From IMG/VR virus record IMGVR_UViG_3300013005_000043, positions 1 through 59,057 of that record: 59,057 nt of DNA; one strand, written 5' to 3'. The translations under genes were made by a program, and so were the position numbers. This document shows positions 2,934-51,167 of this stretch, piece by piece. Below the pieces are notes generated by a model. The model searched no databases, was not told the DNA's origin, and was given only the letters and a program-made list of their open reading frames with translations. Numbering within the stretch: the stretch's first letter is position 1; each line of letters opens with the position of its first letter. Origin of the DNA: a virus.

Positions 2934-3266
2934 TCAATCTAAACCTACAAAAAAAGATCCAGATGTAAAATACATTCCGCCATTTGGTGCCGTACTTGTT
3001 AATTCAATGCTTTGCGTTGCTATAATTACTACTCCACTTTGTGATACTGTTAATATTGGTTGATTATTAAAATTTTTAATTAAAAATATATTGTTTATGT
3101 CACTTCTAATTTCCAATGAACCGGTGATTACTGCACTACCGGAGAATGGAAATGTATTTCCGCCGCCGCCGCCATTTAAAGCAAATGATGCAGTAATGGC
3201 ATAACTAGAAGAAATATTAAATAAAGATCCGGTTTGTAATTGTCCGGGTCTAAACTGACGTGCCAT
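2934..3266 (-). CDS. short tail/fibre-associated structural protein
   Basis: A 110-residue protein beginning MARQFRPGQLQTGSLFNISS. The chosen ATG at 3266 overlaps the preceding stop in a TAATG arrangement and has AAAGGGAG about 9 bases upstream. An ATG at 3275 would sit directly against that ribosome site and is less likely. The sequence has ASFALNG, five glycines at about residues 32-36, then SGSAVITGSLEIRSD, a pattern common in phage fibre and adaptor proteins. Position between the gp15-like gene and two fibre genes suggests a virion role. No enzyme motif is seen. Confidence 0.65.
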   Translation of the reverse strand: MARQFRPGQLQTGSLFNISSSYAITASFALNGGGGGNTFPFSGSAVITGSLEIRSDINNIFLIKNFNNQPILTVSQSGVVIIATQSIELTSTAPNGGMYFTSGSFFVGLD

Positions 3267-4489
3267 TATTGCCATCTCCCTTTAACTACAACAACATCTT
3301 GTGCATTAAGCGTATATCCTAATTCTGCAGTATCAAATACAATTGTTTGCGTTGTGATATCACTAGGTGTCCATGTATATACTGCTTTATCAATGTATTG
3401 TCCATTAATGAATATATCAAATTCATTTTTAGATGCAATTGCCAATGTTACTGGATTAATTGCAGCAAATGATGAAATTGTTACGGTAGTTGCATTTGAA
3501 TATGTTGCAATTTTTTCGGTTATATTAGTTAAATACGTCATTGCTTGTGCATTGATACTAACATTGACTCCGCCGCCTGATATAATTGCAGTGCCGCCGC
3601 TCATTATATTAGTTTGCAGCTGTAATAACTGAGCTGGAATTTCTAATGTTTCAAATATGTTGTTATCAACATCAACAACTTGATCAAATGTTACTTTCTT
3701 TATAGAATACATTTTCTTAATGGTTGACATTCGAACTTCTTGTTCTGATAACAATGTTCCTAAAACAGATAATGGAATTGATGCTCGAACTAATCGATCT
3801 TCTCCAATCGTATTTACCGTTTCAAATGATATTGATCCGATAGTTGTAGGAAATTTATTTGCATCATTTCCCCAAGAAAATCGACCATATGGTAAAATTT
3901 GATCAACTAATTCATTCATTTGTGTAGTAAAATCACACCATAACATCATATCATATTCTACAGTAACATATTTTGGTATATCAATAATATAAAATTGTTC
4001 TGATGGTTGCGGATTATTTTTTGGAATTGGAAACAATTCATCTTCATATCTATTTCTAGAATTATATTTACTTCGATGTACTATATAGTTTGCTGCATTA
4101 GGTCTGTTCACATCCAATGTTTTTTGTGCATCTCTTTCTCCTACAGAATTACGTTTTAGCATAATTAATGGAGATTGCAACATGCCCTTTTCATCACGTA
4201 AATAGCCTAATCTACGTACATTATCCCATTTTTCTCCGTTTGAAAATATCACCGGAACTGGTACTAATTCTTTATTCGCAGTTACTTGTGGTTGAATTTC
4301 ATTTTCAATATACCATTTAATTGCAAAATCAATATCGTAAATTGTTCTTTGTTTTGTTCGAACAACATCATCATCCCGACGAGTTTGCATTGCTCTGTTT
4401 AACGATAGATCAGGCGTTATTCCTTCCGTTCTTTGCGGATTTGGTTTATTTGTTTTTCTATCAATATCCTGTCTATTTAATCTAGGCAT
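3266..4489 (-). CDS. 15: gp15-like tail terminator / tail completion protein
   Basis: T4 gp15 caps the tail and joins it to the neck. Residues about 48-290 follow the gp15 pattern: IDFAIKWYIENEIQPQ, then VPVPVIFSNGEKWDN (compare T4 VPITYASKEHF), then YDMMLWCDFTTQMNELVDQ-ILPY (compare T4 YEDDMFQIVEQILPY). At 407 residues it is much longer than the T4 protein of about 270. The extra length lies mainly in the C-terminal 130 residues, which look like a separate beta domain (FDIFINGQYIDKAVYTWTPS). It sits directly downstream of two neck-protein genes, 2 bases from the previous stop, as expected for this module. The family assignment rests on short motifs read by eye. Confidence 0.7.
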   Translation of the reverse strand: MPRLNRQDIDRKTNKPNPQRTEGITPDLSLNRAMQTRRDDDVVRTKQRTIYDIDFAIKWYIENEIQPQVTANKELVPVPVIFSNGEKWDNVRRLGYLRDEKGMLQSPLIMLKRNSVGERDAQKTLDVNRPNAANYIVHRSKYNSRNRYEDELFPIPKNNPQPSEQFYIIDIPKYVTVEYDMMLWCDFTTQMNELVDQILPYGRFSWGNDANKFPTTIGSISFETVNTIGEDRLVRASIPLSVLGTLLSEQEVRMSTIKKMYSIKKVTFDQVVDVDNNIFETLEIPAQLLQLQTNIMSGGTAIISGGGVNVSINAQAMTYLTNITEKIATYSNATTVTISSFAAINPVTLAIASKNEFDIFINGQYIDKAVYTWTPSDITTQTIVFDTAELGYTLNAQDVVVVKGRWQ

Positions 4490-4491
4490 TA

Positions 4492-5007
4492 TTATCCTTT
4501 AAATGAAAATGCGTTATCTCCGCCTCGTCTTAAATTTTTAATACCCAATGGCGTTTGTCTTGTTGCATGTGCATTACACATAATAGAAACACTATAACCA
4601 TGACTATCACCATTTGGCCATGTTTCTGGATTTTTTCCTACAAAGTATTTGTTTGCATCGATACTATCTAATTCATAGTATTCATTATCCCAAAATACAA
4701 TGTCGCCAGCTTCTGGATAAAATCCTGCCCGTTCTACTAAATCTCTAGATACGCCAAAGGTCAATGTTCTTGTATATGAATGTCCGTAATCATCCATAGT
4801 TGATGATTTATCATCTTTAGTTATAATACATGGCAATAAGATTGAATCATAATATGATTTAGAATCAGATTCTCCGTATATATTAGATTCGGTTGTATCT
4901 AAAATCAATTTATAGAATTCAATTTCAGTATCAACAACTGCATTAATTATTTCTTTATTAATTGATGCTAAAAATTTAGCATCTCGCATTGTTCCAAATA
5001 GTGCCAT
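4492..5007 (-). CDS. 14: gp14-like neck / head-tail connector protein
   Basis: A 171-residue protein placed between the gp13-like and gp15-like genes, the usual position of gp14. Features include an N-terminal helix (FLASINKEIINAVVDTEIEFYKL), the YGESDSKSYYDSILLPC segment and a beta-rich domain (GDIVFWDNEYYELDSIDANKYFVG). The last segment fits head-tail connector folds in which a protein checks a surface and reads 'electrostatic' loops. An AAGGAGAAACC ribosome site precedes the ATG. The position argues for a neck role more strongly than the sequence does. It is shorter than T4 gp14 (about 256), so a general connector protein is the alternative. Confidence 0.6.
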   Translation of the reverse strand: MALFGTMRDAKFLASINKEIINAVVDTEIEFYKLILDTTESNIYGESDSKSYYDSILLPCIITKDDKSSTMDDYGHSYTRTLTFGVSRDLVERAGFYPEAGDIVFWDNEYYELDSIDANKYFVGKNPETWPNGDSHGYSVSIMCNAHATRQTPLGIKNLRRGGDNAFSFKG

Positions 5008-5016
5008 GGTTTCTCC

Positions 5017-6243
5017 TTATGCAACATATATTTTTAATGGAATCTTTGCTTGCATTTCTAATAATTGCGTTGCTTCTGCATTCTGTCTTGTTATCATTTG
5101 TTCTCGAGTCATTTTTTCTAAAAATTCTCGAAGTTGAGTTATCAATGTTTCTTTTTCCGATTGGCCTTGTGATGTTAAATCAGCACCATTAAGTGTTACC
5201 TCACCATTTGGAATAGGAATACTACTGTATTTATTACGTATAAAGCCTAACATTTCTTTTGATAATGCTAATGCATATCTAAATATCCACGCACGCCCCA
5301 TATCATTAATTCTACTGTATGTTTGATAGTTATATGGTATATTTGATGCGTCCGTAATAACACCTCGCATAAGTGCTGTATTGCCAAATAAGACGGCTTC
5401 ATTAGTTTTGCCATCATCGAAAATAACATCAACAAATACTTTATCAAAAAATGGTGTTGCAGATGACGATCCGGTTGGACGTACTGGCACTGGCCAAAAT
5501 TTAATATCATCTCCATGTATTTCAAATGAATATTGAGATTTTCTAATTTGATCATTAAATTCAATCGATTGCAATCTCATCAAATCTGCATGTATTGGCA
5601 TCATCATAAATGATACTGATGGTGAAAATCCACCAAAATCAAATGCATCAAGCAACTGTTGCGAACCTAAGCCTGTTCCCACAAATGGATCAAAATATCT
5701 TACGATAGCAGGTGGAGCATTATGAATTACTCGTTTTATTTCAACCGAACTAGTAGTTAAAATAATACCTAATGATTTAGATACTGCAGTTCGTATGCTA
5801 TACGTTTGTTGTCCGGGTTGAATATCAAACTGTACGGTATGCCATTTTAAGTTACCGCCGCTGTCTGCTTCAGTTCCATATGCTTTTGATAGTTTAGAAA
5901 CATATCCAAATGAATTTCCAATCAATGCATCGGTAAAACTATTTCCGGATAAGAAGCTTGATCCGGTTTGGACTCCTAACGTACTATATAAATTATTAGC
6001 AATATTTACTTGGTTTACTTGATTTGAATATTCAACTACTGCAGCTTCTAATGCTGTATAAAAATTTACAGCTTGAAGTTCAACATCTAAAATTGGATAT
6101 CCTAATGTTTGAGCTGCCATTTTGGCAAACTTATCTGCATGAGATTGAAATGTAGCATCAGTATCAAAAAATCCAAATGGAGTACTACCAGTTGTAAATG
6201 AAGAACTGCCGGGCCAAATTGGGCGATTTTCTGAATAATCCAT
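5017..6243 (-). CDS. 13: gp13-like neck protein (head completion)
   Basis: A 408-residue protein with a segment familiar from neck proteins of marine T4-like phages: DATFQSHADKFAKMAAQ, then LGYPILDVELQAVNFYTALE and YSNQVNQVNIANNLYS near residues 28-88. In T4, gp13 and gp14 form the neck that closes the filled head before tail joining. The middle is beta-rich (VQFDIQPGQQTYSIRTAV), and the C-terminal part is helical with a charged coiled-coil segment (LREFLEKMTREQMITR). It has its own promoter motif at 6261-6270 and leads the gp13-gp14-gp15 operon. Length exceeds T4 gp13 (309), as in other environmental phages. Confidence 0.7.
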   Translation of the reverse strand: MDYSENRPIWPGSSSFTTGSTPFGFFDTDATFQSHADKFAKMAAQTLGYPILDVELQAVNFYTALEAAVVEYSNQVNQVNIANNLYSTLGVQTGSSFLSGNSFTDALIGNSFGYVSKLSKAYGTEADSGGNLKWHTVQFDIQPGQQTYSIRTAVSKSLGIILTTSSVEIKRVIHNAPPAIVRYFDPFVGTGLGSQQLLDAFDFGGFSPSVSFMMMPIHADLMRLQSIEFNDQIRKSQYSFEIHGDDIKFWPVPVRPTGSSSATPFFDKVFVDVIFDDGKTNEAVLFGNTALMRGVITDASNIPYNYQTYSRINDMGRAWIFRYALALSKEMLGFIRNKYSSIPIPNGEVTLNGADLTSQGQSEKETLITQLREFLEKMTREQMITRQNAEATQLLEMQAKIPLKIYVA

Positions 6244-6260
6244 CTCTACACTTCCTTTTC

Positions 6261-7338: not shown

Positions 7339-8991
7339 TTAAAGCGTGTTAAGACCGTGAACGTATACTTTTCCGTAGAATTCAGGACGAACTACTTGTT
7401 TTGCGTAACGAGTCATCACACCTTTACGTGGAGTGAAGTTAACTGGATCGTATACAAGTGGAGTCATGATTAACGGAATATATGGAGCAAATACCGCACC
7501 CGTTTCAAGGAACTGAGAACCTCTAAAGCCCATCAAGATTACATTTTCTTTCATGTATGGGTTTTTGTAAACGGTATAACGGTTGTTGATTGCACCAATT
7601 TTTTGTACACCGGCAGCAAATTCCATTTTAGTACCATCTGTGTCGGCAGCAAATCCTGGGATAGACTCAAGGATAGTTGCAACTGCTGGAGACGTTACTA
7701 AGAAGTTAGCACCACCACGTAATGTTTTTTGGTGAATTTTATTAGATACTTTTTGAAGTTTTGTACCTAAAGTTTGGAACCATCCACCTTGGGTGTTATA
7801 GAATCCATCACCTAAATTTTGGTTAGCCGTACCAGCTGCCAAAGTTGTAAATGCAGTACCATCAAAAATTGTGTTGTTTCGAGCTGACCAATATTCAGTT
7901 GTTGGAGCTGCTGAAATCAACATATCAAGGATCTCAAGGTCGATTTCCATTGATACATACTCAGACAACATTGAAGTCAATTCAGCCTCAGCATCAATTG
8001 AGTGATATGCATTAAGGTCTTGAGCGAATTCAGGTGTCCATACAGCCTTTAACTTACGTGTTTTAGCAACAATTGGGTTAGACTGCATTTCAAGGTTAAT
8101 TTCTGGAATATCGATATCAGTGTTGTATCCGTTTCCGTAAGCACCTTTATTGTCTTCAAAATCACCTCTAGTAATATCTGTAGGCTGTTTGCTATAATTG
8201 ATTTTTAAATTACCAGCATCGATAGCTAATTGAACTGCTGCAAATTGAGCAGAACCAGATAATACAAATGATGCAGTGAAGTTAGAATTCACAGTCGAAA
8301 ATGCTTGAACTGGAACAATTTCAGCAGCACCAGAACCAGATGCTAATGTAAATGAACGAACTGCATATAGGTCAGCATCGGTTGGAATGTTAACTGTTAA
8401 CATTTTGTAATTAGCTGAACCTGAATATGTAGTATCACCATTGATTTGAGCTACGGTTGGAGTAGATCCAGTTGCAGCAGTTACAGCTGATGAAGTGTAT
8501 GCATTGATTGAATAACCAAAACGTCCTGCTCCATAAAGACCGCCGCTTGGGTCACCTGCTGTAGTGGTAACACCAAACATTGAGTCATCAGCATTTGGAG
8601 AACCAAATGGATCACCGGTACGGTTATTATTATCAGCATCAAATCCAGGTTGAGCTGTACCATATTTAAAGTCTAGATAAAATACAAGACCCGATGGCAA
8701 GTTCATTGGTTGAACTGAAACGAATTCTTTTGCAGCAAATTCAGCAAAAATACGACGTACCAATGGAAGTGCTACACCTGCCCACTCTTCTGAACCAGCT
8801 GATGTTCCTGTTGCAGAAGCTTCTTTTACTAATTGACGTGCTTGGTTTTCAAGCAATTGTGCCATACCAGCACGTTCAGTCTCACCGCGAAGACCTTCTA
8901 ATAGACCCGTTCTCTCCCACTTTGCAGCCAAAGCTTTTGCATTGTTTCGTTGAACAAAGTCATTTGTTTGAAGTAAGTTTGAAATACTCAT
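7339..8991 (-). CDS. 23: major capsid protein, gp23-like
   Basis: The protein forms the head shell hexamers. It is 550 residues, close to T4 gp23 (521). The N terminus (MSISNLLQTNDFVQRNNAKA) and the first 57 residues have the helical, charged look of the T4 propeptide. A probable maturation cut lies after LVKE at residue 57, near T4's position 65. FAEFAAKEFVSVQPMNLPSG near 85-104 and VVRPEFYGKVYVHGL at the C terminus are typical gp23 segments. Codons here are better behaved and the gene is flanked by a strong terminator, which fits very high expression. GGAAAAAAG precedes the ATG. The scaffold gene lies just upstream. Confidence 0.93.
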   Translation of the reverse strand: MSISNLLQTNDFVQRNNAKALAAKWERTGLLEGLRGETERAGMAQLLENQARQLVKEASATGTSAGSEEWAGVALPLVRRIFAEFAAKEFVSVQPMNLPSGLVFYLDFKYGTAQPGFDADNNNRTGDPFGSPNADDSMFGVTTTAGDPSGGLYGAGRFGYSINAYTSSAVTAATGSTPTVAQINGDTTYSGSANYKMLTVNIPTDADLYAVRSFTLASGSGAAEIVPVQAFSTVNSNFTASFVLSGSAQFAAVQLAIDAGNLKINYSKQPTDITRGDFEDNKGAYGNGYNTDIDIPEINLEMQSNPIVAKTRKLKAVWTPEFAQDLNAYHSIDAEAELTSMLSEYVSMEIDLEILDMLISAAPTTEYWSARNNTIFDGTAFTTLAAGTANQNLGDGFYNTQGGWFQTLGTKLQKVSNKIHQKTLRGGANFLVTSPAVATILESIPGFAADTDGTKMEFAAGVQKIGAINNRYTVYKNPYMKENVILMGFRGSQFLETGAVFAPYIPLIMTPLVYDPVNFTPRKGVMTRYAKQVVRPEFYGKVYVHGLNTL

Positions 8992-9021
8992 CTTTTTTCC
9001 TTTGTTTTTGTTTTTTTATTG

Positions 9022-10059
9022 TTATAATAATCCTGCTAATTTTTTCCATCTGTTAGCCATTTCGAAGCCTTCAGATAAAACTTGTGTTGTTTCTACGCTT
9101 GGCGCTGTAGTTGCAGATGGTCTAGAAGCCGCAGAATAAGACTCTTTAACCATTCGCTTCTTAGTTTTTGGACGAGCAAAACTTTCTGCCAATGTAGTAA
9201 ATACTAATTTTGTTTCCCTTGTATTTCCTGCTCTATCAAAATTTTCAATTACTTTCATTTTTTGAGCTTCAGTCAATTCAAAGTTACGGAACAACTTGTT
9301 AGTGTAAAGAAGTTTAGCATTAAGAAGATTTACTTCATTGATAACTGATTGAAGACGTTTAACTGTTCGATATGCTTCTTGAAGTTCTTGATCTTTAGCT
9401 ACCAATTCATCTTCCATTTCTTGCATTACATCACCTTCTGGTGCATATGCATTTGGATCTTCTTCGGCATCCATTTCACGAAGAATCGATTCGATGATTT
9501 CATTAACATCTTCTTCTTCTTCATACATTTCGTTAGTCATATCCTCATCTTCTTCCTCATAATACATCCCTTCGTTTGGCATATCAACATCCAATTCATC
9601 TTCTCCTGCCATCATATCATCTTCTAATTCTCGGATGATTGATTCTAGATTTAGATCTTCAGGTGCATCTTCCATATCCATACCTTCGTTGTACTCAGCA
9701 GACATTTCTTCTTCAGATGCTGGTTCTTCATCAGATACCATTTCTTCGCCGTCTTCACCTGCCATTCCTACTTGAAAAGAATAATCATTACCACCAACTG
9801 ATGCTGACAATGAATCATCTGTCCAAGTAAAATCATCACCACCCATCTCTTCTGTTCCTGCCTCTACACCTGTATCTACAGCTGCACCGGCCATTTCTTC
9901 ATCCTCGCCTTCAATCTCAGTTGTTAGTTTAGTAGCTAACATTTCTTTGATTCTTGGCGAAAATGCTTCTTGTAAAGCAATCTTTGCGTTTGCTAAAGCA
10001 GTTTCTTTAACAGCTTTTGCATCAGCGATTGCTTGTTTAAGCAAGTCTGATTTTGCCAT
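9022..10059 (-). CDS. 22: prohead scaffold (core) protein, gp22-like
   Basis: The internal scaffold around which the gp23 shell assembles and which gp21 later degrades. Evidence is position between protease and capsid genes, 345 residues, a very acidic middle (long runs of E and D with M at residues about 50-205) and a helical second half (ELQEAYRTVKRLQSVINEVN). The C terminus, NRWKKLAGLL, is a sequence commonly seen at the end of scaffolds in T4-like environmental phages. Several L/I-x-E sites, for example VLSE near the end, could be cut by gp21. It starts with a basic helix (MAKSDLLKQAIADAKAVKE). A promoter region with two motif copies lies upstream. Confidence 0.85.
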   Translation of the reverse strand: MAKSDLLKQAIADAKAVKETALANAKIALQEAFSPRIKEMLATKLTTEIEGEDEEMAGAAVDTGVEAGTEEMGGDDFTWTDDSLSASVGGNDYSFQVGMAGEDGEEMVSDEEPASEEEMSAEYNEGMDMEDAPEDLNLESIIRELEDDMMAGEDELDVDMPNEGMYYEEEDEDMTNEMYEEEEDVNEIIESILREMDAEEDPNAYAPEGDVMQEMEDELVAKDQELQEAYRTVKRLQSVINEVNLLNAKLLYTNKLFRNFELTEAQKMKVIENFDRAGNTRETKLVFTTLAESFARPKTKKRMVKESYSAASRPSATTAPSVETTQVLSEGFEMANRWKKLAGLL

Positions 10060-10113
10060 TTTTCTCCTTAAATTTTGTTTTTTGGAAATAAGATTATTTG
10101 AAATCTTAATAGA

Positions 10114-10195: not shown

Positions 10196-10225
10196 AAAAA
10201 AGTCCTAACATTTCTGCTAGGACTT
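10196..10225 (-). terminator. Rho-independent terminator after the bS21 gene
   Basis: On the minus strand, AAGTCCTA/TAGGACTT forms an 8-bp stem with a 10-base loop, followed by six T. It separates the bS21-containing transcript from the scaffold/capsid transcript. T runs on the other side make it possibly bidirectional. Confidence 0.85.
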
Positions 10226-10242: not shown

Positions 10243-10482
10243 TTAAAATTTATTTTGCAAATCTCGCATTTTTTGTCGATATTGTGCTTTGGAAACTTGC
10301 ATTCGTTTTTCTACACTAGGTTTGGTAAACGTTCGATGCTCTTTTACATATTCTAATACGCCGCTTTCTTTTACTTTGCGTTTCCAAGTTCGTAATGCAA
10401 ATCCTAAATCATGATTTACTACATTTACTGCCGTTGCATTGCCTGGTACAATGCTTTGATGTTGTTTTTGTTTTTTATTCAT
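10243..10482 (-). CDS. rpsU: phage-encoded ribosomal protein bS21
   Basis: A 79-residue basic protein matching the bS21 pattern: LGFALRTWKRKVKESGVLEY, then HRTFTKPSVEKRMQ and a basic tail, YRQKMRDLQNKF. In bacteria bS21 sits on the 30S platform beside the anti-Shine-Dalgarno region and affects initiation. Phage copies are known from environmental T4-like phages and are thought to enter host ribosomes and favour phage messages. It is placed in the late head operon, between the accessory head genes and scaffold, and has its own terminator right after. The N-terminal 20 residues (MNKKQKQHQSIVPGN) are phage-specific and replace the usual short start. Confidence 0.85.
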   Translation of the reverse strand: MNKKQKQHQSIVPGNATAVNVVNHDLGFALRTWKRKVKESGVLEYVKEHRTFTKPSVEKRMQVSKAQYRQKMRDLQNKF

Positions 10483-10503: not shown

Positions 10504-10980
10504 TTATGCTCGTTTTGAATTTTGTTGCCTTACATTAAATCTAAAATGTTTTAATTCTGGTTTCTGAGCTAAATACCCTTGAAGTTTTTGTGATTCTAAT
10601 GCAGGATCTTGTCCTAATCTAAAATAAAAATATCCAATCTTACCAGATGGCGATACTGTTTTTTTAATTACGGTAAATCCTTTTCGTTCGGACCAATCTT
10701 GAATTTCTTGTGCTACTGCTTCAGCCGTTGCTGGGTCTCGGAGTATATATTCTATCCCACCTCGATAATCGGTTAAGTTGTTAACTAATTGTGCTTCTTC
10801 TAAATCTGATTCTCCTAGTTGTTTTTGAACTTTTTCCATGGAATCGCTTACTGCATCAATCGATGGAGCTAATTCATCAAACGCACCTTTTACTTTAGAA
10901 ACCATATCGGGATTCGGAAGATCAGACTGTTCGGTTAATCCAAAAAATTCTCGATATAATTTTTTAAATTTACTCATCAT
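10504..10980 (-). CDS. head-module hypothetical protein, possible packaged protein
   Basis: A 158-residue protein, not recognised. The start is one of two adjacent ATGs (MMSKFKKLYREFFGLTEQSD). Its first 17 residues are a basic amphipathic helix ending in GLTE, which resembles a T4-type capsid-targeting propeptide with an L-x-E cleavage site. Residues 22-70 form a helical, acidic segment. The rest (GFTVIKKTVSPSGKIGYFYFRLG) looks like a small mixed alpha/beta domain. It lies between the protease-linked gene and bS21 and has its own promoter motif at 10991. Confidence 0.6.
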   Translation of the reverse strand: MMSKFKKLYREFFGLTEQSDLPNPDMVSKVKGAFDELAPSIDAVSDSMEKVQKQLGESDLEEAQLVNNLTDYRGGIEYILRDPATAEAVAQEIQDWSERKGFTVIKKTVSPSGKIGYFYFRLGQDPALESQKLQGYLAQKPELKHFRFNVRQQNSKRA

Positions 10981-10990
10981 GCACCTTTAT

Positions 10991-10998
10991 TATAAATA
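10991..10998 (-). promoter_or_regulatory. late-promoter-like motif
   Basis: The minus strand reads ATTATTTATAATAAAGG, 10 bases before the ATG pair at 10980. The first A of the motif differs from the commonest form. Confidence 0.55.
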
Positions 10999-11018: not shown

Positions 11019-11396
11019 TTATCCAACAGAAAAATAACGATTTAAATGTTGTCCAATATTTTCATATGCTAGAGCCATTCGGTCTTGTGCTTCTTTAAGA
11101 TCGCGCGCAGCTTGTTCAAAATCACGATAATCTTCGTGCATTCTTTTATTACCTTTTTTATGAGCAACATTAGCCATCCAATCATCACTCTCAGTCATAA
11201 TTCTATCTGCACGTTCAACTATATTTTTAACACGTTGTGCAATTTCTTCTAAATCACCTTTTCCGTAAACCGAATCTCCCATTGCAGAAAAATTTGCAAT
11301 TTCTTGTACGAATTGTTGCTTTTCTTCGCGAGATAATGGCTTAGGTTGATCTTGCATCATAGTTTCTAAAATAAACTTTAAATTTGGTGTTCTCAT
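11019..11396 (-). CDS. head-module helical protein
   Basis: A 125-residue, almost wholly helical and charged protein starting MRTPNLKFILETMMQDQP. Its ATG overlaps the stop of the gp21-like gene (spacing of zero), so the two are probably translationally coupled. The N-terminal helix followed by FILE could be a gp21 cut site. A YGKGDLE motif near residue 41 recurs in the 586-residue protein at 28964-30724. A role in the prohead core is inferred from position only. Confidence 0.65.
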   Translation of the reverse strand: MRTPNLKFILETMMQDQPKPLSREEKQQFVQEIANFSAMGDSVYGKGDLEEIAQRVKNIVERADRIMTESDDWMANVAHKKGNKRMHEDYRDFEQAARDLKEAQDRMALAYENIGQHLNRYFSVG

Positions 11397-12031
11397 TATA
11401 TTATCCTACATTTACCATCTTCACATAAAATCGAAGTGATTATTTCGTTTGTTTTTGCGTATCTATTTGTTTTTATATTATTTTTATTAACTGATTCATT
11501 CATGTGCGCAGGCCGCATAAAAGCCCCATGTGTTGATGGATTTGATACGAAGTCCCAACATATCAATTCAAAATCTTCTTGTACTTCTACTACACCTTCA
11601 TTTCGTAATTCTTTTACTGATCCCAACCCACGTGATGAAATGCCTAACGTAATACCTGCTCTAAATAGTTCTTTAAGAATCTTACCAGATGGAGTATCTA
11701 AAATTTGTACAGCACCATTCAAATCATCGCCATTCCACCATATTTTTAAAACATTATGAGAAACGTTATTTAAGTTAACTACCGATGATTCGGGATGATC
11801 TAATTCTCCTAATGCTCTATGTTGATCTATATATTCTTTTTGATACCGTTGACATTCTCTTTGTAAAATATGTTTTGGATAAACACGTCCGTTTTGATTT
11901 TTAGCGCCTGCTCGTTGCAAAACACCTTGCACAACAAAACCACCAGGTAATCCATATGCAGCACCGCTTGATTCAGTTAATGAACCAATTGGCTTGAATG
12001 GCATATATTCTACTATTAGATGTTTTGACAT
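11396..12031 (-). CDS. 21: prohead core protein protease, gp21-like
   Basis: Serine-type maturation protease that degrades the scaffold and trims head proteins after L/I-x-E. Length (211) matches T4 gp21 (212). GELDHPESS gives the likely catalytic His at residue 79, and GISSRGLGSV gives the likely catalytic Ser at 132/133. RVYPKHIL and FELICWDFVSNPSTHGAFM are typical of the family. It is encoded between the portal-side genes and the scaffold, as in T4. Together with the scaffold, the capsid propeptide and the candidate capsid-targeting N termini elsewhere, it defines the cleavage system of the head. Confidence 0.9.
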   Translation of the reverse strand: MSKHLIVEYMPFKPIGSLTESSGAAYGLPGGFVVQGVLQRAGAKNQNGRVYPKHILQRECQRYQKEYIDQHRALGELDHPESSVVNLNNVSHNVLKIWWNGDDLNGAVQILDTPSGKILKELFRAGITLGISSRGLGSVKELRNEGVVEVQEDFELICWDFVSNPSTHGAFMRPAHMNESVNKNNIKTNRYAKTNEIITSILCEDGKCRII

Positions 12032-12032
12032 T

Positions 12033-12797
12033 TTATTCTCCTAATGCTCTTACGCGTTCTGATATTTTAATTAATCTTTCTGAAATTTTTGTTAATGCAC
12101 TGTCTACTGAAGAACCATATCCATTTCTTGCAATATTTGATTCTGTTTTTAACTTTGATGCATAATTTACAGTACGTTCAATTTCTTGTAATTGTCGCGC
12201 AACTTCTTTTATTGTATGTTTTATTTTTTGTTCAGGAGTCGTTTTTGAATTACCTGTTGCATATGCTCGATATGATTCAATAAGTTTTTCATATTTTGAA
12301 TCCATTGCTTCAGCAACGGCAGATTTCATATGGTTTGACGTTTTATCTTTTCTTTTAGATAATCCTGGCGTATTTGTTAAATCAACAGAAGGATATTTGT
12401 AGTTTTTATGTTGCCAATTTTTATCATCTTCTGCAAAAGGAAACTTATCTGTATACTCTTCTTCTTCATCTTCTGGAGCTTGATAGTCGCCTAATTTCCA
12501 GCTTGGAGAAACATTTACGGATTCATATGTTTTTGATTTATTTCGCCATTTACCTGGTTTGGCAAATGCTGCAGGTATATTATAACCAGCAATTGCACCC
12601 GTAGCATTTTGTTCGTCTAATTCTTCATCATCTTGAAGAATAGCACGCTTTCTTGCTTTTCTTCTATGATGCAAATAGTCATCAGATTTGTCATGATCTC
12701 CATCATTATCAATATCATCATCTTCATGATCAACTGCATCCAATGATTCTTCTAATTCAATAAACTTGTTTTCTATTTCTTTTAATAACGATTTCAT
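12033..12797 (-). CDS. acidic head-module protein with Asp-rich cation-binding-like motif
   Basis: A 254-residue protein, function unknown. It starts with a helix MKSLLKEIENKFIELEESLD that carries possible gp21 sites. Residues 23-43 hold DHEDDDIDNDGDHDKSDDYL. The spacing D-x-D-x-D-G-D is like a calcium-binding loop, and it is followed by a basic HHRRKARKRAI stretch. This combination recurs in core proteins of marine T4-like phages as far as I recall. The middle is disordered and acidic; the C-terminal 90 residues are helical (IKHTIKEVARQLQEIERT). The end overlaps nothing and the next start (gp21) lies 1 base after the stop. Confidence 0.65.
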   Translation of the reverse strand: MKSLLKEIENKFIELEESLDAVDHEDDDIDNDGDHDKSDDYLHHRRKARKRAILQDDEELDEQNATGAIAGYNIPAAFAKPGKWRNKSKTYESVNVSPSWKLGDYQAPEDEEEEYTDKFPFAEDDKNWQHKNYKYPSVDLTNTPGLSKRKDKTSNHMKSAVAEAMDSKYEKLIESYRAYATGNSKTTPEQKIKHTIKEVARQLQEIERTVNYASKLKTESNIARNGYGSSVDSALTKISERLIKISERVRALGE

Positions 12798-13687: not shown

Positions 13688-15538
13688 TTAATCTTGTAAA
13701 ATATTGTTTTCATCTAACATAGTTCCCGAATCATTTGATAATGGATCTATTTTATCTTTTAAAGATTCTAATAAGATATCTGGAGTTTTATTATTTTTCC
13801 GTTTCAGATGTTTTAAAATTTCATGCGATTCTCGTTGATGTGGTTTGATTGTTTCTGCAGATCGCGGATCTGGTTGAAATGTGGTTGCCTGATTGCCAGA
13901 TTTAAATGCCTGATCAATTGTTTTCTTGCCGGTTGGATCCCATCCAAATTCATTTTTATGTTGTCCAAATTTAATTCCTTCTTTTGGACGACCACCTTTA
14001 TCTTTTTCTTCTACTTCATCCGATGACATATGTATTGATGCTAAATCATGTGGCGTGCCAAATGATACACCGGTGATTGCTGGATCATTTCCTTCTTGCT
14101 CAATTTGATTTTGACGGAATCTCAATTTGAGATCTTCAACTACATCGGTTCTTTGCTGTAACCATTGATCTTCGGACATATTGAATATATACTCATATAT
14201 AAACTTGTCCGATAACAATTTTGAGTCTTTCATTGCAGTTGCTAATGTCATTTTTTCAGTCATTAGTGCAACTTTTTGTTGATCATAAATAATTGATGGC
14301 GCCGTTAATTCTAATTCAAAATCAATTAAATCTTCCCCTTCAAAGCCTTGTGTATATAAATGTACTATTGCAATTTTATATAATTCAGAAACAATTATTT
14401 TTTGAATTCGCTCAATTGTTCTAGCAAATCTAATATCCATTGCAGCTAACGTTGTTTTTCCTTCTACTGCTTCCGAATAACCTAAAAATGCTTTTGGTAC
14501 TTTTAATGCACCTACCATTTTATCTTTTATGTAATTAATATCATCCATTCCGGTAAATGTCATACCAGGTAACGTATCAATTGATGTAGTAGAATTACCG
14601 CCGCGGACAGGCAAGTAATAATCTTCCAACATGTTGTTGAGATTAAACTTTAAGTTGTAATTACCAGTTTGCGGATCAATATGTGGTATTTTTTTCATTT
14701 TATTGATAATTTGTTCCATAAATGCATCTACTTCATTTGGCGGAATATTACCAATATCAATTTTAAAAATACGTTTTTCTGGTGCACGCATAATACGATG
14801 TATTAGCATTGCATCTTCCATCATCATTAATTTTTGAAATTCTTTACGTGCTCCTTCTAACATAGATCTACCATATGGTAAAAAGTTAGAATCGGATAAC
14901 ATTCTAAAATGTGCTATTTCAAAAACATCATAACCTTGTTGTCGATTTCCTACGTGTTTGAATTCAATTTTATATTCTCCTGTAGCTTCGTTATATTCTT
15001 CCCAACGTTCGATTTCATAACTAGAAAATGGTCGTACGTTAATTACTCCAATTTCGTTTGCAATATCCAACTTTAAGAAGAAATCTCCATATTTGGTCAT
15101 GTTTCTAATCCATGTCCATAAATTGAATTCAATGTTTAAAATATCATAAAATAAATTATATAGTATTTTTTGAATTCTACTATTGCTAGTTTTAATTGTC
15201 AATATATCACCAAATTGATTGGCCAATGTTGATTCATCGGAATATATATCTAATGCTGCACTAATTATTGGATCACGATCCATCATTTCATAATCAGCAT
15301 ATAATTGCATCCTGTTTTGATGCATATAATAATTTGAATCATAACCGCCCATTCCTCCGACCATATGCTTGTTTGCACCATGCATTCTGGTATATCTATC
15401 CGCAACTTTTGTTTGATTTAAATTACCACGAGATTGAAGTTGATTTGTATCTACAACTTTTAATCGATCTTTGCCATACGAACGAACAACGACGTTTGTA
15501 GCAAATAAGTTTTGTAAGCGTTTTCTCAATGAAGGCAT
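13688..15538 (-). CDS. 20: portal protein, gp20-like
   Basis: Dodecameric portal through which DNA enters and leaves and which nucleates the prohead. It is 616 residues against 524 in T4. Conserved-type segments include DYEMMDRDPIISAALDIYSDE near residues 80-100, WTWIRNMTKYGDFFLKLDI near 140-158, MLIHRIMRAPEKRIFKIDIG near 245-265 and LKVPKAFLGYSEAVEG-KTTLAAMDIRFART near 345-375. The C-terminal 130 residues are charged and disordered and end KDKIDPLSNDSGTMLDENN. It lies directly downstream of the terminase gene. Confidence 0.92.
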   Translation of the reverse strand: MPSLRKRLQNLFATNVVVRSYGKDRLKVVDTNQLQSRGNLNQTKVADRYTRMHGANKHMVGGMGGYDSNYYMHQNRMQLYADYEMMDRDPIISAALDIYSDESTLANQFGDILTIKTSNSRIQKILYNLFYDILNIEFNLWTWIRNMTKYGDFFLKLDIANEIGVINVRPFSSYEIERWEEYNEATGEYKIEFKHVGNRQQGYDVFEIAHFRMLSDSNFLPYGRSMLEGARKEFQKLMMMEDAMLIHRIMRAPEKRIFKIDIGNIPPNEVDAFMEQIINKMKKIPHIDPQTGNYNLKFNLNNMLEDYYLPVRGGNSTTSIDTLPGMTFTGMDDINYIKDKMVGALKVPKAFLGYSEAVEGKTTLAAMDIRFARTIERIQKIIVSELYKIAIVHLYTQGFEGEDLIDFELELTAPSIIYDQQKVALMTEKMTLATAMKDSKLLSDKFIYEYIFNMSEDQWLQQRTDVVEDLKLRFRQNQIEQEGNDPAITGVSFGTPHDLASIHMSSDEVEEKDKGGRPKEGIKFGQHKNEFGWDPTGKKTIDQAFKSGNQATTFQPDPRSAETIKPHQRESHEILKHLKRKNNKTPDILLESLKDKIDPLSNDSGTMLDENNILQD

Positions 15539-15590: not shown

Positions 15591-17168
15591 TTAACGTATC
15601 AACCAAGTTAGATCTTCATCGTTATGACCGTTATTCCATGTCCATCCATCTGTATTATTTGATGGTCGACCCGTATAGATTTTTGTTTCAGATTTTTGAA
15701 ATTGTGATAATGCTCGTTTATGCAATTCAATACCTTGCTGTCGCAATTTTAAGGATGTATCTCGTAACCACAATCCAATACAAAATGACATTACAAGGTC
15801 ATCGTTATATCCATTCTGTGATTGTGCTTTACCATTTAACCAAACAAAAACAAATAATTCTTGAATTAATCTTTTAGAACGAATTACTGGTGTTCGTTCT
15901 CTCATATACATTTCTAGTGCTGATATCATTAATGGACGCGTACGTGAGGTTGTTGATACACCCGGGACCATTTGTGATTTGTCCTTCATATCATAACCTT
16001 TTTTAAGTTGCGTATCTACATCAACATAACCATCATCTTTATATGTATAAAATAAATTTTCATAACTACGGTCTAGTGCGGGTTGAATTGCAGCCCAACC
16101 AATGTTTGCATTTTCTATTGCTAATAATGCATTGTTCCATTCAGTTGCAACTGATACAAGCATATTACCAAAATCTTTAGGAGGCAATTTACCTTTATAT
16201 TCAGCAACTTGTGCAATTGATTCTACATCAATAACATGAAATGTTGACCAGTCAGCACCATCACCTCGTGCAACGTCTGCTACTACTATATAATTTTTTT
16301 CATAGTTTGGATATTCCCAAATCCAATATGCATTATCAAATCCTCGTCGTTCGATAGGGTCTGTACATTTTAATTCGTAATCCATTAATATAGAACCATC
16401 TATTACAGTATGTCCAGATGAAATGAAATCGCAATCGCATTCTTGTGCTGCACCTCGTTCACCTAATAATTGTGTTTGTTCATCACGCCATTTTTGATCT
16501 CGATCTGGATGTACGGTCCAATGTAGCTTGATTGTATGAAATCCATTAATTTCTTGTTCAGCTTCTGACCAAACTGAGTGGAACCAGTTACCAATACCGT
16601 TGGGTGTAGATAATACGATTGCGCCTCCACCTGTTGATAATGTAGCTTGCGATGCTATCCATATTTCTTCAATATTACGAATAAACGCAGCCTCATCTAT
16701 AATTAACAATGATAATGCTTCCGATCGTGCTCCTGTAGTTGCCGACGATACCGCTTTAATTTGCGAACCATTTTTAAATTTCAATGAAAGTTTATTATCT
16801 GCTTCAATTGTTCCTTTTAGCCAACTTGGTAAATTATCGTGCATTACCCGTACTTTAGTAACCAAGTTTTTTGCTACTTCTTGTGTTGTTGCAATAACTA
16901 ATACGTTAAAGTCATCTTTGAAAAGCATGCTCCATAAAGCAAATCCTGCAGACAATGTTGATATACCTAACTGACGAGACTTTAATATTACATTATAACG
17001 ATTGTCTCGTAGTTCCGTTAAAGAATCTTCCTGAAACGGATATAGATTAAATTTAATTTTACCTCGTTTAGGATGTTGAATATAACAATATTGTTTCATG
17101 AAAAAAACAGGATCTTTAGCACACATTGTGTACTGTTGTTGAATGATCTGTTTTATATTCTGTGACAT
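15591..17168 (-). CDS. 17: terminase large subunit, gp17-like
   Basis: ATPase/nuclease motor that packages and cuts concatemeric DNA; 525 residues (T4: 610). The ATPase has a deviant Walker A, LKSRQLGIST: the lysine (K63) is at the start of the loop and the usual G-K-T/S lysine is Ile, as known for several large terminases. Walker B is LLIIDEAAF (D158, E159) and the coupling motif is LSTPNG near 187. The RNase-H-like nuclease has VVADVARGDGAD (D298), AIENANIG (E352) and a late acidic residue in NGYNDDLVMSF. Two bases separate its start from the stop of the membrane-anchored protein upstream. No clear gp16-type small subunit is seen next to it. Confidence 0.94.
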   Translation of the reverse strand: MSQNIKQIIQQQYTMCAKDPVFFMKQYCYIQHPKRGKIKFNLYPFQEDSLTELRDNRYNVILKSRQLGISTLSAGFALWSMLFKDDFNVLVIATTQEVAKNLVTKVRVMHDNLPSWLKGTIEADNKLSLKFKNGSQIKAVSSATTGARSEALSLLIIDEAAFIRNIEEIWIASQATLSTGGGAIVLSTPNGIGNWFHSVWSEAEQEINGFHTIKLHWTVHPDRDQKWRDEQTQLLGERGAAQECDCDFISSGHTVIDGSILMDYELKCTDPIERRGFDNAYWIWEYPNYEKNYIVVADVARGDGADWSTFHVIDVESIAQVAEYKGKLPPKDFGNMLVSVATEWNNALLAIENANIGWAAIQPALDRSYENLFYTYKDDGYVDVDTQLKKGYDMKDKSQMVPGVSTTSRTRPLMISALEMYMRERTPVIRSKRLIQELFVFVWLNGKAQSQNGYNDDLVMSFCIGLWLRDTSLKLRQQGIELHKRALSQFQKSETKIYTGRPSNNTDGWTWNNGHNDEDLTWLIR

Positions 17169-24196: not shown

Positions 24197-24225
24197 GCGT
24201 AATATCTTTATTATAAATATTACGC
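24197..24225 (-). promoter_or_regulatory. late-promoter-like motif inside a hairpin
   Basis: GCGTAATA (24197-24204) pairs perfectly with TATTACGC (24218-24225); the loop and the inner stem carry the motif ATATTTATAA (minus strand, 24211-24220). The structure overlaps the stop codon of the gp47-gp46 fusion and ends 3 bases before the ATG at 24193. No T run follows, so it is not a terminator. Confidence 0.6.
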
Positions 24226-27200
24226 ATGATTAATCTTGCTAAATCCGTTTGTCTTGTTTACTTCAATTAAATTGTCAACCATATCTCGCATCGAATCAAC
24301 GTGTGATATGATGATTGAAAAATCAAATTTAGTTCTAAAATAATCAAATAAGTTTACTACTGAAGAAATATGTTCAGCATCTAATGACCCCCAACCTTCA
24401 TCGATTGCAATAAAATTAGGACGAGGTAATGCTGAAACATTGATAAGTGCAATGCGAATTGCCAATGATGATATAAAACGTTCCATACCCGATGTTAATT
24501 CTAACGGCCAATAATTATCTTCATCATATATAATATAACCGTTAATATTTTTGCCATCTGTATTTAACACCATATTAAATTCAACAATTTGATTGAGTAC
24601 ATTGTTGATTTCAGATTCAATTTTTGGAATAGCTTTTGCTACTAATTCATATGGTATTCCATTTCGCTTAACTGATTCTAAATAATATTCATATGCTTTA
24701 TATTCAATTTCTAACTGTTGATATCGTTCCAATTGTTCCATAGCCGTACTTTTATTTGTACGTGCAACTTCAATAGCACCAAACAATGATTTAATTTGAT
24801 CTTGAATTATTTTAATTTGCTGAGAACATGATGTAATTTTTGACTTACATTCTTCAATCGATGAATCTATAGATTGGTTGTGAACAATTGCAGTTTCATT
24901 TTTACGAAATGATTCTTGTCGTTCAATTGTAGTTTCTAATTCAGATTCTCGTGTTTGTAAATCACTTTCTAAAATTTGTAATTGTAGTTCGTTTCGTTCT
25001 AATGTAATTTTTTTAGTTGCAACATTGGATTTTAATTTGCTATATTGGTCTGCAGTTTCAAATACAGGTTGTAGTTTATTTAATTCGATCGTTGCAGATT
25101 CAATATGTTGTTGCAATTCTTCTAATATCGCTCTATCCGAATCAATTGTATTTTGAGCTTCGATTGCATTTTGCACGAAAACGTTAGATGTACAGTATTT
25201 GCAGTTTGGATCATATTCATGAGATTCGAGATGTTTAATTTTTTCTTGTTTTGCATTTACTTGTTCCTGTTGTTGTCTAAACTTGTGTGATTGTTTGTTT
25301 ATATTAGATTCTAATTTTTGATATTGTTCAATCTGCGTTTTAATTGCATCTACATTAATTGCTAATAATTCTAAATCTAATGATTCAATTGTTTCTGTTA
25401 ATGTTTCTAGTTCTTGTTCTGCAGATTCTATTTCTGTTTGAATTGATTCAATTTTACTAACTAACGTTTGTTCTTGCAATTGCAATTCTTTGATGTTAGG
25501 ACCATCATATGTTGTTGGTAATTTGGTTTCAATTAATTGCAATATTTGTTCTTGTAATGCATTTCGTTGTTCTTGATGTTGATCTTCAAGTTGTTCTAAT
25601 GATATAATAGTATCTTGATTGTCTGTTATAACTGCATCTGCTTGCACAATAATTTCAGCAAAATCCGTTTTCTTATAATCTTTTAATCGTCCGGCAGTTT
25701 CTTTAATTTCATCAGCGGCAAGTTGATAAAGTTGTTCGAATACCGTAATATCTAAAAACTGTGACAACAAGTCTTTGCGTTCTTTTTGTGATTTTTCTAT
25801 GAAGTTATTGTTATCTGCTTGCAAAGAAAATGCAGTTAAAATAAAATCATCATATGTGCCTAAATAACGACGAATGTTTTTATTTGTTTCACTACGTTCT
25901 TCTCCGTTCAAATTTTCTGAATCAGTATAAAAATCTACATCAACTTTAACGTGCGTTTCTTTCTTTTTATTTTGGGTGCCTTTACGTTCAATAGTATAAA
26001 TTATGCCATTCATTTCAAAACGAAATACCCCCCGAAACCAATCTTTTTTATTATTCAATACTTCATTTGCTTTGCTTGTTTTGCTACATTTATCGAATAT
26101 AGTATACGTAATTGCATCAAGCAAGCTTGATTTACCAGAAGTATTTGCTGCAAATAATCCACAAACATCGGAAAGATTTTCAAAATTTAAAACATTGCCT
26201 TCGCCATATGAAAACATGTTATCAAATTCAAATGATATAGGATGCCAAGTAGTATGACGTATTGATTCTACTGCTGGCAGTTTTGAATTTATTGTTCGGT
26301 TGATGTGTCGAATAGCATCAATTTCATTGGGCGTAGCTTGTGGAAAATTTGTATCAATATATTCCGTTAGTAATACATTTTGATATTCAACATCTCGTAC
26401 ATTTCCTATTGCTAAACTAGAAGATGTATTAGTAGAAGCCGAACCTATAGTTCGTTGAATTGTAATATCTTCTACTTGATATTTTTTACGAATTGTTGCA
26501 ATCAATCGTTTCATATCTGCAGCACTCGTTTCGTTAAACTTAATGCGAATGCGCGGACGATTAGGCATACGGTGTGGCGAAGATATAATTGCAGAACCTT
26601 GAGTTTCTATAGTTACGTATCCATAATCATTTTCAATTTGCACAAAATCTGCAGTTCTGCGTTCTATATCCCAAACTAATATACCATGGTCTAATGCTTC
26701 ACCGTGATTTTGTTGAATAAGTGAACCAGGATATGCAACAGTGCGTGCATCATCTAAAAACTGTGCCGGTTTATGAATATCTCCTAGCAAGGTAATGTCG
26801 TGTCCTTCAAACAAATCAACGCCTACATGTTCATTTGATATTTGATAACCAATATCCGTTTTAGCAGTATTTACTGCACCATGATGTAATGCAATTTTAT
26901 ATGCTGCAGCGAAATCTTTTGCACGTATGTAATCTGCAGGTGTTTTATCAACTGCCATATGATTCCAAGTAACTCCACCTAACTCAAATAATCCATTATC
27001 TTTAATGAAATGAATATGTTTGTTTTGAATTACATCTAAAACGGGACTAACTGCATCGATGCGATGCATATTATTTAAGTTCATATCATGATTACCTAAA
27101 ATAACAATTGTAGGTAATTCAAATCCGTTAAAAAAATCAACTAGCATCTGTACTAGTTCTGGTGACATATCTAATTTGCTATGCACAATATCACCAGTAA

Positions 27201-27366
27201 CTACTGCAATGCTTCGTTCCGTTTTAGTTTGATTGATATATTTAAACATGTTTTGAAATACTTCTCGATATTCTCGATGTCGTTTCAATGTTCGAATATG
27301 TACGTCTGAAATATGATAAATCTTATCGATTCGATCAATTCCTGTTTCAATTTTTTTTATGCCCAT
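24220..27366 (-). CDS. 47-46: fused gp47-gp46 (SbcD-SbcC / Mre11-Rad50) nuclease-ATPase
   Basis: A single 1048-residue protein with both halves of the T4 recombination nuclease. Residues 1-240 are a metallophosphoesterase: D21-V-H23, VVTGDIVHS (56-63), GNHD (91-94), LHHG (160-163), GDIH (195-198) and YPGSL. Residues 380-1048 are the SMC-like ATPase: Walker A AANTSGKSS (406-414), long coiled coils about 560-720 and 735-900, zinc hook CKYC (722-725), signature LTSGMERF (957-964) and Walker B FIAIDEGWGS (985-994). In T4, gp46 and gp47 are separate and load UvsX by resecting ends and degrade host DNA. Its start overlaps the primase stop by 10 bases, so the two are coupled. Confidence 0.9.
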   Translation of the reverse strand: MGIKKIETGIDRIDKIYHISDVHIRTLKRHREYREVFQNMFKYINQTKTERSIAVVTGDIVHSKLDMSPELVQMLVDFFNGFELPTIVILGNHDMNLNNMHRIDAVSPVLDVIQNKHIHFIKDNGLFELGGVTWNHMAVDKTPADYIRAKDFAAAYKIALHHGAVNTAKTDIGYQISNEHVGVDLFEGHDITLLGDIHKPAQFLDDARTVAYPGSLIQQNHGEALDHGILVWDIERRTADFVQIENDYGYVTIETQGSAIISSPHRMPNRPRIRIKFNETSAADMKRLIATIRKKYQVEDITIQRTIGSASTNTSSSLAIGNVRDVEYQNVLLTEYIDTNFPQATPNEIDAIRHINRTINSKLPAVESIRHTTWHPISFEFDNMFSYGEGNVLNFENLSDVCGLFAANTSGKSSLLDAITYTIFDKCSKTSKANEVLNNKKDWFRGVFRFEMNGIIYTIERKGTQNKKKETHVKVDVDFYTDSENLNGEERSETNKNIRRYLGTYDDFILTAFSLQADNNNFIEKSQKERKDLLSQFLDITVFEQLYQLAADEIKETAGRLKDYKKTDFAEIIVQADAVITDNQDTIISLEQLEDQHQEQRNALQEQILQLIETKLPTTYDGPNIKELQLQEQTLVSKIESIQTEIESAEQELETLTETIESLDLELLAINVDAIKTQIEQYQKLESNINKQSHKFRQQQEQVNAKQEKIKHLESHEYDPNCKYCTSNVFVQNAIEAQNTIDSDRAILEELQQHIESATIELNKLQPVFETADQYSKLKSNVATKKITLERNELQLQILESDLQTRESELETTIERQESFRKNETAIVHNQSIDSSIEECKSKITSCSQQIKIIQDQIKSLFGAIEVARTNKSTAMEQLERYQQLEIEYKAYEYYLESVKRNGIPYELVAKAIPKIESEINNVLNQIVEFNMVLNTDGKNINGYIIYDEDNYWPLELTSGMERFISSLAIRIALINVSALPRPNFIAIDEGWGSLDAEHISSVVNLFDYFRTKFDFSIIISHVDSMRDMVDNLIEVNKTNGFSKINHA

Positions 27367-30748: not shown

Positions 30749-31291
30749 TCACCAATCAATCATTACCATTTTACCGTTCCATAACATGATATTATCTGAC
30801 TTAAAATCTAAATCTAAATCTAAATCTTCAATGTCTATTTTTTGTACATCTCGTTGCAACGCCCGTAAAAAATTTACTAGTTCAATATCAGTATTACGAC
30901 CACCGTCAGCATCTAAATATTCAAAAATAGAAACTTCTCCTCCATTATCTCGTGCGTATATTTTATAAGATGAAATAAATTGTTCAATTGATTGTTTTTG
31001 AGTATTTGATAAGTTATCAGCTTTTGCCATAATATACATATTACGTCCGTCTACGTAATATACCGGTATAAAAGTTGTATATTGTGAATATCGATCAACA
31101 ATTACTTCTGCAACTCGATATTCTTCAGATTCAGTTGTAATTTTAAATAATTTATCTTCATCATCAATTTCATAAACTCGGCCGTTATCGCCTTGACCGA
31201 ATAATTTAAATTGTTTATTTTGTATTTTTTGTAAAATTCGTTTTAAATCAACATCAACAATTTCATTTAATAATTTTTTAAGTCGTATCAT
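30749..31291 (-). CDS. minimal kinase-like protein, candidate packaged protein
   Basis: A 180-residue protein with kinase-fold landmarks. The glycine loop is FGQGDNGRVYEI (31-42), a lysine (K50) sits in LFKIT, a Glu pair follows at 56-57, and YIMAKAD (86-92) is in the hinge position. A catalytic-loop-like DFKSDNIML has D162 and N167 in D-x4-N spacing, and a metal-binding Asp in MVMIDW (D179) takes the DFG/IDW position as in aminoglycoside-phosphotransferase-type kinases. The protein stops right there, so the C-terminal lobe is missing or very small. The N terminus MIRLKKLLNEIVD resembles a capsid-targeting helix with an L-x-E site. Substrate unknown; a scaffold-like inactive kinase is possible. 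Confidence 0.65.
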   Translation of the reverse strand: MIRLKKLLNEIVDVDLKRILQKIQNKQFKLFGQGDNGRVYEIDDEDKLFKITTESEEYRVAEVIVDRYSQYTTFIPVYYVDGRNMYIMAKADNLSNTQKQSIEQFISSYKIYARDNGGEVSIFEYLDADGGRNTDIELVNFLRALQRDVQKIDIEDLDLDLDFKSDNIMLWNGKMVMIDW

Positions 31292-50038: not shown

Positions 50039-50539
50039 ATGAAAAATATTTTAGCAGAAAACATGTTGCGATTTGGAACAAAAAATATTTCCGAAGCAGA
50101 TATACGAACAAAATTAACAGAAGCGGCATACACAATAATTCCAGTAACCATAGACATCCCGGCACAAAAAAATGAACAAGGTGTTTTAGTAGCTATTCCA
50201 AATGCTTTATTAAAATTTCAAATCATCAACACAAAGGGAACGGAGGGAAGTATGACTGACGGCTTTGAGTCAATTTCGCAAATTCATTGGCCTAACGGTA
50301 GTGCAAAAGTAAGCGGCAAACCGACTAAAGATGGTAATGGAAGTATTGTTGGAAGTTTTGCAACAGATGCTGCCGGATTAAAGACATTAACATCATTCGT
50401 TGGAAAAAAAGATATGACCGGTACTTTAGGTATGAAAGTAACAATACAGCCACAAAATGAACTTGTTCCTGCACCAGCTACGGTTAGATTCAAAGAGCGA
50501 CAACAAACCGTAACGCCAACACCCGTAAAGAAAGATTAA
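50039..50539 (+). CDS. LLAEN-RFGT family protein 1, candidate packaged protein
   Basis: A 166-residue protein. The N terminus MKNILAENMLRFGTKNISEA is closely related to the N terminus of the next plus-strand gene (LERLLAENIVRFGTRNLTEN) and ends in an I-x-E-type site, as a T4 capsid-targeting propeptide would. After it comes a beta-rich domain (TIIPVTIDIPAQKNEQGVLV) and ALLKFQIINTKGTEGSMTD, GSIVGSFATDAAGL, and a C terminus with TPTPVKKD. No enzyme motif. It has its own promoter and terminator, so it can be expressed alone. Confidence 0.7.
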   Translation: MKNILAENMLRFGTKNISEADIRTKLTEAAYTIIPVTIDIPAQKNEQGVLVAIPNALLKFQIINTKGTEGSMTDGFESISQIHWPNGSAKVSGKPTKDGNGSIVGSFATDAAGLKTLTSFVGKKDMTGTLGMKVTIQPQNELVPAPATVRFKERQQTVTPTPVKKD

Positions 50540-51119: not shown

Positions 51120-51167
51120 TTGTTAACAAGAACATATATATATAAAACCTATAAAGGAAACAAAAAC

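Follow-up and report, generated by a model that had tools for sequence, protein, structure and literature searches.

The window, a virus contig of 59,057 bases analysed over its whole length, codes for a ribosomal protein bS21 that carries an amino-terminal extension and lies in a T4-like head region. Its gene has no Shine-Dalgarno (SD) site, while structural genes around it have sites that are conserved across a clade of related phages. Our tentative reading, held with rather less than even confidence, is that phages of this clade make the SD-blind ribosomes of Bacteroidia read SD sites by means of the extended bS21, pairing an SD-less switch gene with SD-led structural genes in a reversal of the host rpsU circuit.

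Ribosomes of Bacteroidia hide their anti-SD sequence and ignore the SD start signal, and Bacteroidia genes are almost without SD sites. This makes the class a sharp setting for the open question of whether phage ribosomal proteins redirect translation.

The bS21 gene and its place in the head region

Genes of the head region all run in the same direction. Their order is TerL, portal, two hypothetical genes, protease, two further hypothetical genes, bS21, an ORF at the position of the scaffold gene (gp22), the major capsid protein (MCP) gene gp23, a small ORF, PhoH and a neck gene. The features used below are:

15591..17168 (-), terminase large subunit, TerL (PF03237)
13688..15538 (-), portal gp20 (PF07230)
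11396..12031 (-), prohead core protease (PF03420)
10985..10997 (-), T4-late-promoter-like element TATTTATAATAAA ahead of the 158-aa gene and bS21 (putative function)
10504..10980 (-), 158-aa hypothetical gene directly upstream of bS21, 21-bp gap (ORF; orthologue in the clade)
10243..10482 (-), phage bS21 gene, 79 aa, ATG start (ORF, Pfam match and alignment)
10432..10482 (-), codons of the 17-residue amino-terminal extension, MNKKQKQHQSIVPGNAT (gapped in at least 95% of 89 Bacteroidia bS21)
10200..10225 (-), intrinsic terminator hairpin and T tract directly after bS21
9022..10059 (-), ORF at the scaffold-gene (gp22) position (named from synteny)
7339..8991 (-), MCP gp23 (PF07068, E=1.1e-75)
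5017-6243 (-), neck/head-completion gene

The plus strand of 10243-10482 is interrupted by stops and the ORF is found only on the minus strand. Its 79-aa product, MNKKQKQHQSIVPGNATAVNVVNHDLGFALRTWKRKVKESGVLEYVKEHRTFTKPSVEKRMQVSKAQYRQKMRDLQNKF, matches Pfam Ribosomal_S21 (PF01165) with E=2.2e-11 and 43.7 bits, above the cut-off of 27. The check proposed in the initial annotation thus bears out its identification of bS21. The closest solved relative is the F. johnsoniae protein (7jil). An AlphaFold2 model (pLDDT 80) features helices at residues 26-40, 42-48 and 55-78, and a fold search of the PDB (Foldseek) returned mostly chains of the ribosomal small subunit, including E. coli 30S chain U, none of them at E<=0.001.

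The two other structural statements of that annotation, a location among the head genes and a terminator of its own directly after the gene, also stand. The gene is found between the gp22-position and protease genes and is followed by the hairpin at 10225-10200 with its T tract. Such a hairpin recurs behind bS21 in every distinct sequence of the relatives (50/50), where changes in the stem are paired, as compared to 2/40 shuffles. The 158-aa gene, for which Pfam and PHROG searches gave no match, likely shares one transcript with bS21. The motif TTTATA[AT] occurs in 31% of leaders versus 12% of shuffles and clusters at -30 to -12. Promoter-like element and terminator together suggest a short unit, probably expressed late to judge from the motif, that is separate from gp22-MCP. 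The gp22-position ORF had no Pfam match. Enrichment of TTTATA[AT] 12-30 bases before starts was observed in this clade and in Flavobacterium phage immuto (leaders including L232-L234).

A scan for bS21 gave 83 confirmed relatives, of which the best 80 of 83 were kept. Among phages found independently through their capsid protein (~75-92% identical), bS21 is present in 54/54 that hold the region, always on the strand of the MCP gene and at an upstream distance of about 1.2-1.7 kb. Pairwise dN/dS of bS21 against the seven nearest relatives is ~0.12-0.26, denoting purifying selection. The nearest isolates are immuto (MW353176) and Microcystis phage Mel-JY01 (PP395634); bS21 is absent from the whole immuto record. 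That the gene lies between protease and gp22 in every relative would also suit a protein that is packaged in the virion or takes part in head assembly, and that acts as soon as the phage enters or has no action on ribosomes, and packaging was raised as a possibility by Chen 2022 (PMC9723584). We regard such a role as very improbable, given that the ribosomal residues are kept under purifying selection and that immuto builds a similar head without bS21.

The amino-terminal arm and the residues facing the ribosome

The 65 distinct clade bS21 proteins with an MNK start were compared to 89 Bacteroidia bS21 sequences. Bacteroidia-type bS21 begins at the MLIIPVK strand without an arm, whereas the clade protein bears one with the consensus MNKKQKQHQ-x-I-V-P-G-N, in which M1, G14 and most of KKQKQH are invariant or nearly so; other members start with MSKK, MTKK or MSRN. 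The arm has no helix in the AlphaFold2 model, where residues 1-20 score at pLDDT 51-70. That it is an artefact of start codon choice was rejected: in most relatives a stop sits a few codons before the ATG, and the protein is conserved despite varied codons at G14, H8 and N2.

The carboxyl terminus is that of a Bacteroidia-type protein. Phage Tyr68 aligns with F. johnsoniae Tyr54, the tail residue that contacts the anti-SD (7JIL), inside the motif A-x-[YF]-x-Q, which reads A-x-Y-x-Q in the window. In the 65 distinct clade proteins position 54 is F in 61% and Y in 33%, and Q56 is kept in 95%. The comparison of carboxyl-terminal contacts with host bS21 that had been proposed for this gene therefore finds the anti-SD-hiding aromatic retained (Tyr68; Y or F), so that a simple unhiding of the anti-SD cannot be assumed. 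Arg31 and Arg35 correspond by alignment to E. coli Arg17 and Arg21, which contact the SD (PMC10123108), and R21 is kept in the clade; phage bS21 of the published type has Ser or Tyr at the Arg21 position. Other positions differ between host and clade proteins (R14->F/Y, F/Y19->W, F23->V/I, D24->K, R30->E), and the host K51 position is occupied by A, D, S and others.

Shine-Dalgarno leaders and the host

Pairing of leaders (-20 to -4) with the 16S tail ACCUCCUUUCU was compared to that of dinucleotide shuffles. Leaders of the window give z=-4.4, with a core SD motif in 30% versus 9% in shuffles; two 160-kb relatives give z=-5.2 and -7.3, the 805 leaders of the clade z=-17.2, and those of Mel-JY01 z=-7.2. 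Motif starts are most frequent at -10/-11 in the window and the two relatives, and mock windows further upstream contain no SD signal. The initial annotation had many genes with AAGGA-type sites. Such sites are real, yet only part of the genes have them, and bS21 is not among these. Shuffles and mock windows led to rejection of base composition as the source of the signal, and the late-promoter motif was rejected likewise, since motif-free genes retain it.

Conservation of single sites was assessed as dG<=-5 in distinct orthologous leaders:

8998..9003 (-), AAAGGA of the MCP gene, 99% of 78 leaders
10064..10069 (-), AAGGAG of the gp22-position ORF, 100% of 57 leaders
12038..12043 (-), TAGGAG of the protease, 100% of 60 leaders (inside the end of the upstream gene; shuffles 57%)
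6253..6257 (-), AAGGA of the neck gene, 96% of 49 leaders (shuffles 24%)
4495..4500 (-), AAAGGA of gene 3266-4489, 90% of 50 leaders (shuffles 16%)

In the clade the threshold is reached by 0/79 distinct leaders of bS21, 0% of 55 of portal gp20 and 2% of 56 of TerL. The 160-kb relative G434 has SD sites also on GroEL, GroES and several tail genes. It carries a large cluster of sugar/surface-glycan genes, a stretch in which SD sites taken as a whole are not above chance.

No SD signal was found in leaders of immuto (z=+2.4), crAss001 (z=-1.2), phi38:1 (+0.6), phi14:2 (+1.6) or FCL-2 (+1.8), and SD leaders are absent from all five bS21-less Bacteroidia phages. G449 is also null (z=+1.2), and three Bacteroidia chromosomes have no SD leaders (z=+2.5, -0.6 and +2.0). 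A general association of SD use with phage bS21 was rejected, as SD leaders are missing in bS21 phages of the published type (z=-1.1) and jumbo contigs with host-type bS21 (G450, G454) are null (z=+0.2 and -0.6).

These published-type Bacteroidetes phages, with bS21 and no SD leaders, agree with plain substitution, in which phage bS21 does the job of host bS21 late, after host bS21 synthesis stops, with the SD sites an independent character of the clade. The conserved Tyr68 and A-x-[YF]-x-Q tail point the same way, as do the essentiality of bS21 in F. johnsoniae, where rpsU is autoregulated (McNutt 2023, PMC9976891), and its exchangeability between ribosomes (PMC6375957). Substitution is nevertheless less likely in our judgement than the account given below: it leaves unexplained both the conserved SD sites on high-output genes in a phage of SD-blind hosts and the invariant amino-terminal arm that hosts do not have.

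The host class is strongly suggested to be Bacteroidia by sequence similarity of bS21, by GroEL of sister phages and by the nearest Flavobacterium phage. Against Bacteroidota the bS21 of the window reaches 39.8 bits, against 30 sampled Pseudomonadota <=23 bits; the one higher match there is a bS21 of Flavobacteriia type from a mixed bin. In a tree of sampled Bacteroidota and Pseudomonadota, GroEL of the relatives G434 and G435, rather than of the window itself, nests in Bacteroidia next to genome G050 (97* support, 71% identity) and away from Pseudomonadota. A Bacteroidia-derived GroEL and a GroES are present in relatives (L416 4723-6333, L418 10219-10512, L417, L431). The pattern used in the genome scan derives partly from F. 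johnsoniae, so that its nearly all-Bacteroidota result is not taken as the sole basis for the host. A capsid protein search of 395 Bacteroidota genomes found no infected or prophage contig. Bins titled Pelagibacter and Limnohabitans (L305/G006, L265/G002) contain Flavobacteriia-type rpsU contigs; G002 was placed with Bacteroidota by search and G006 was not, so titles or bins are mixed.

Could the true host simply read SD sites, the leaders following the host with bS21 uninvolved? Mel-JY01, whose host is written as a cyanobacterium, combines a bS21 gene at the corresponding position with SD-like leaders, and some Bacteroidota lineages with non-aromatic bS21 show SD use: in G133, G141 and G014 (L397, L399, L402) Arg replaces the aromatic and z is -4.9, -4.5 and -3.1. 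Other genomes with non-aromatic bS21 are SD-null. Against such a host, both the tail of bS21 and GroEL point to Bacteroidia; the sampled genomes whose bS21 has aromatic 54 are SD-blind without exception (11/11), as are G050, the genome nearest by GroEL, and other near genomes; and immuto, the nearest isolate infecting Bacteroidia, is SD-less. Mel-JY01 itself differs from the clade in that SD-like leaders extend to its portal and TerL and that its bS21 has no aromatic at position 54. An SD-reading host is thus improbable, if less so than a virion role for bS21; like plain substitution, it is a rival to be reckoned with.

In the closest Bacteroidota (Flavobacteriia), an extended SD precedes nearly every rpsU gene while the neighbouring genes have none, which agrees with McNutt 2023 (PMC9976891). 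A host rpsU that is SD-led among SD-less neighbours is the reverse of the phage arrangement. The F. johnsoniae rpsU has the extended SD and codes for no arm, while the phage gene has no SD and codes for an arm.

A possible mechanism and related systems

The account that we put forward, which falls slightly short of an even chance, is that host ribosomes make bS21 from its SD-less leader and that the protein then retunes 30S subunits toward SD-led structural mRNAs. The phage protein would probably be made late, in a short unit with its upstream neighbour. As its leader is SD-less, it could be translated by unmodified SD-blind Bacteroidia ribosomes. Since bS21 is bound only loosely and can be exchanged, the phage form would enter host 30S in this way, keeping Arg31, Arg35 and Tyr68, adding the conserved basic amino-terminal arm and altering the surrounding surface. 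30S with phage bS21 may then pair better with SD leaders, favouring mRNAs of capsid, scaffold, protease, neck and some tail proteins over SD-less host mRNAs. Late timing, incorporation in 30S and altered start selection, like the causal link from phage bS21 to SD-led translation, are inferred here from the leader pattern together with published results. F. johnsoniae 30S without bS21 or its carboxyl-terminal region translates SD-mRNA better and initiates faster on SD-rich rpsU (PMC9976891), and bS21 of pelagiphage HTVC008M enters E. coli 70S, which then translate poorly in vitro (PMC6375957). Since the aromatic residue is retained, the anti-SD is unlikely to be released in full; it is more plausible that the balance shifts, or that the arm and the SD-facing arginines help directly.

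Several points count against this account. The aromatic that hides the anti-SD is kept as Y or F; the published-type phages show that phage bS21 alone is not tied to SD use; the link depends on a single clade, which amounts to one evolutionary event; portal and TerL are SD-less late genes besides bS21; and the core SD motif occurs in only ~30% of window genes. The presence of bS21 together with conserved SD sites on structural genes in the clade, versus neither in the Flavobacterium relative, nonetheless yields a specific prediction that can be tested with F. johnsoniae reporters of the existing type. Were it borne out, the clade would offer a clear example of specialised ribosomes made by a virus.

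The core idea is not new, as it was published in 2022. Chen 2022 (PMC9723584) described bS21 among head genes of Bacteroidetes phages (clades a-e), with an aromatic residue conserved in the phage protein, and proposed late expression and a preference for phage mRNA. Those phages are alike in having bS21 amid TerL, portal, prohead protease and MCP, Bacteroidetes hosts and aromatic 54. They have bS21 on the strand opposite to the head genes, unlike the 54/54 relatives studied here. Look-alikes of the published type (L321-L345) have a host-type amino terminus and no SD leaders, in contrast to the amino-terminally extended protein and SD-led structural genes of the clade. Mizuno 2019 (PMC6375957) surveys viral bS21, mostly from aquatic lytic phages, and contains no SD analysis; the HTVC008M isolate belongs with another host phylum. 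The clade may be among the contigs of that survey, though no description of it as such was found there. Mel-JY01 RpsU has the same gene order and strand, between protease and MCP, and differs from the clade also by the lack of the KKQKQH arm, while the clade portal and TerL are SD-less, unlike their Mel-JY01 counterparts. Immuto has the same head gene order and an MCP 57.5% identical, but neither bS21 nor SD leaders. A literature search with little coverage of subscription journals or preprints found no paper on SD sites in bS21 phages, and the same-strand, amino-terminally extended clade and its SD pattern look new.

Other genes of the window are of separate interest. A 1048-aa ORF (24220-27366, -), present also in one relative, joins a calcineurin-like part (SbcD/Mre11-type) to an SMC/AAA part (SbcC/Rad50-type) and looks like a fused SbcCD. 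The ORF at 48918-49943 (-) is a homologue of the UV-endonuclease UvdE (197 bits). A similar short amino-terminal segment precedes unrelated proteins coded at 50039-50539 (+), 51120-52523 (+) and 30749-31291 (-), and by genes of L419, L422 and L423. It takes the form M-K-N-L-L-S/A-E-N-M-L-R-F-G-T-K-N-L-S-E or M-I-R-L-K-x-L-L-x-E. Its L-x-E could be a prohead-protease cleavage motif, and the segments are possibly capsid-targeting leaders of packaged internal proteins.
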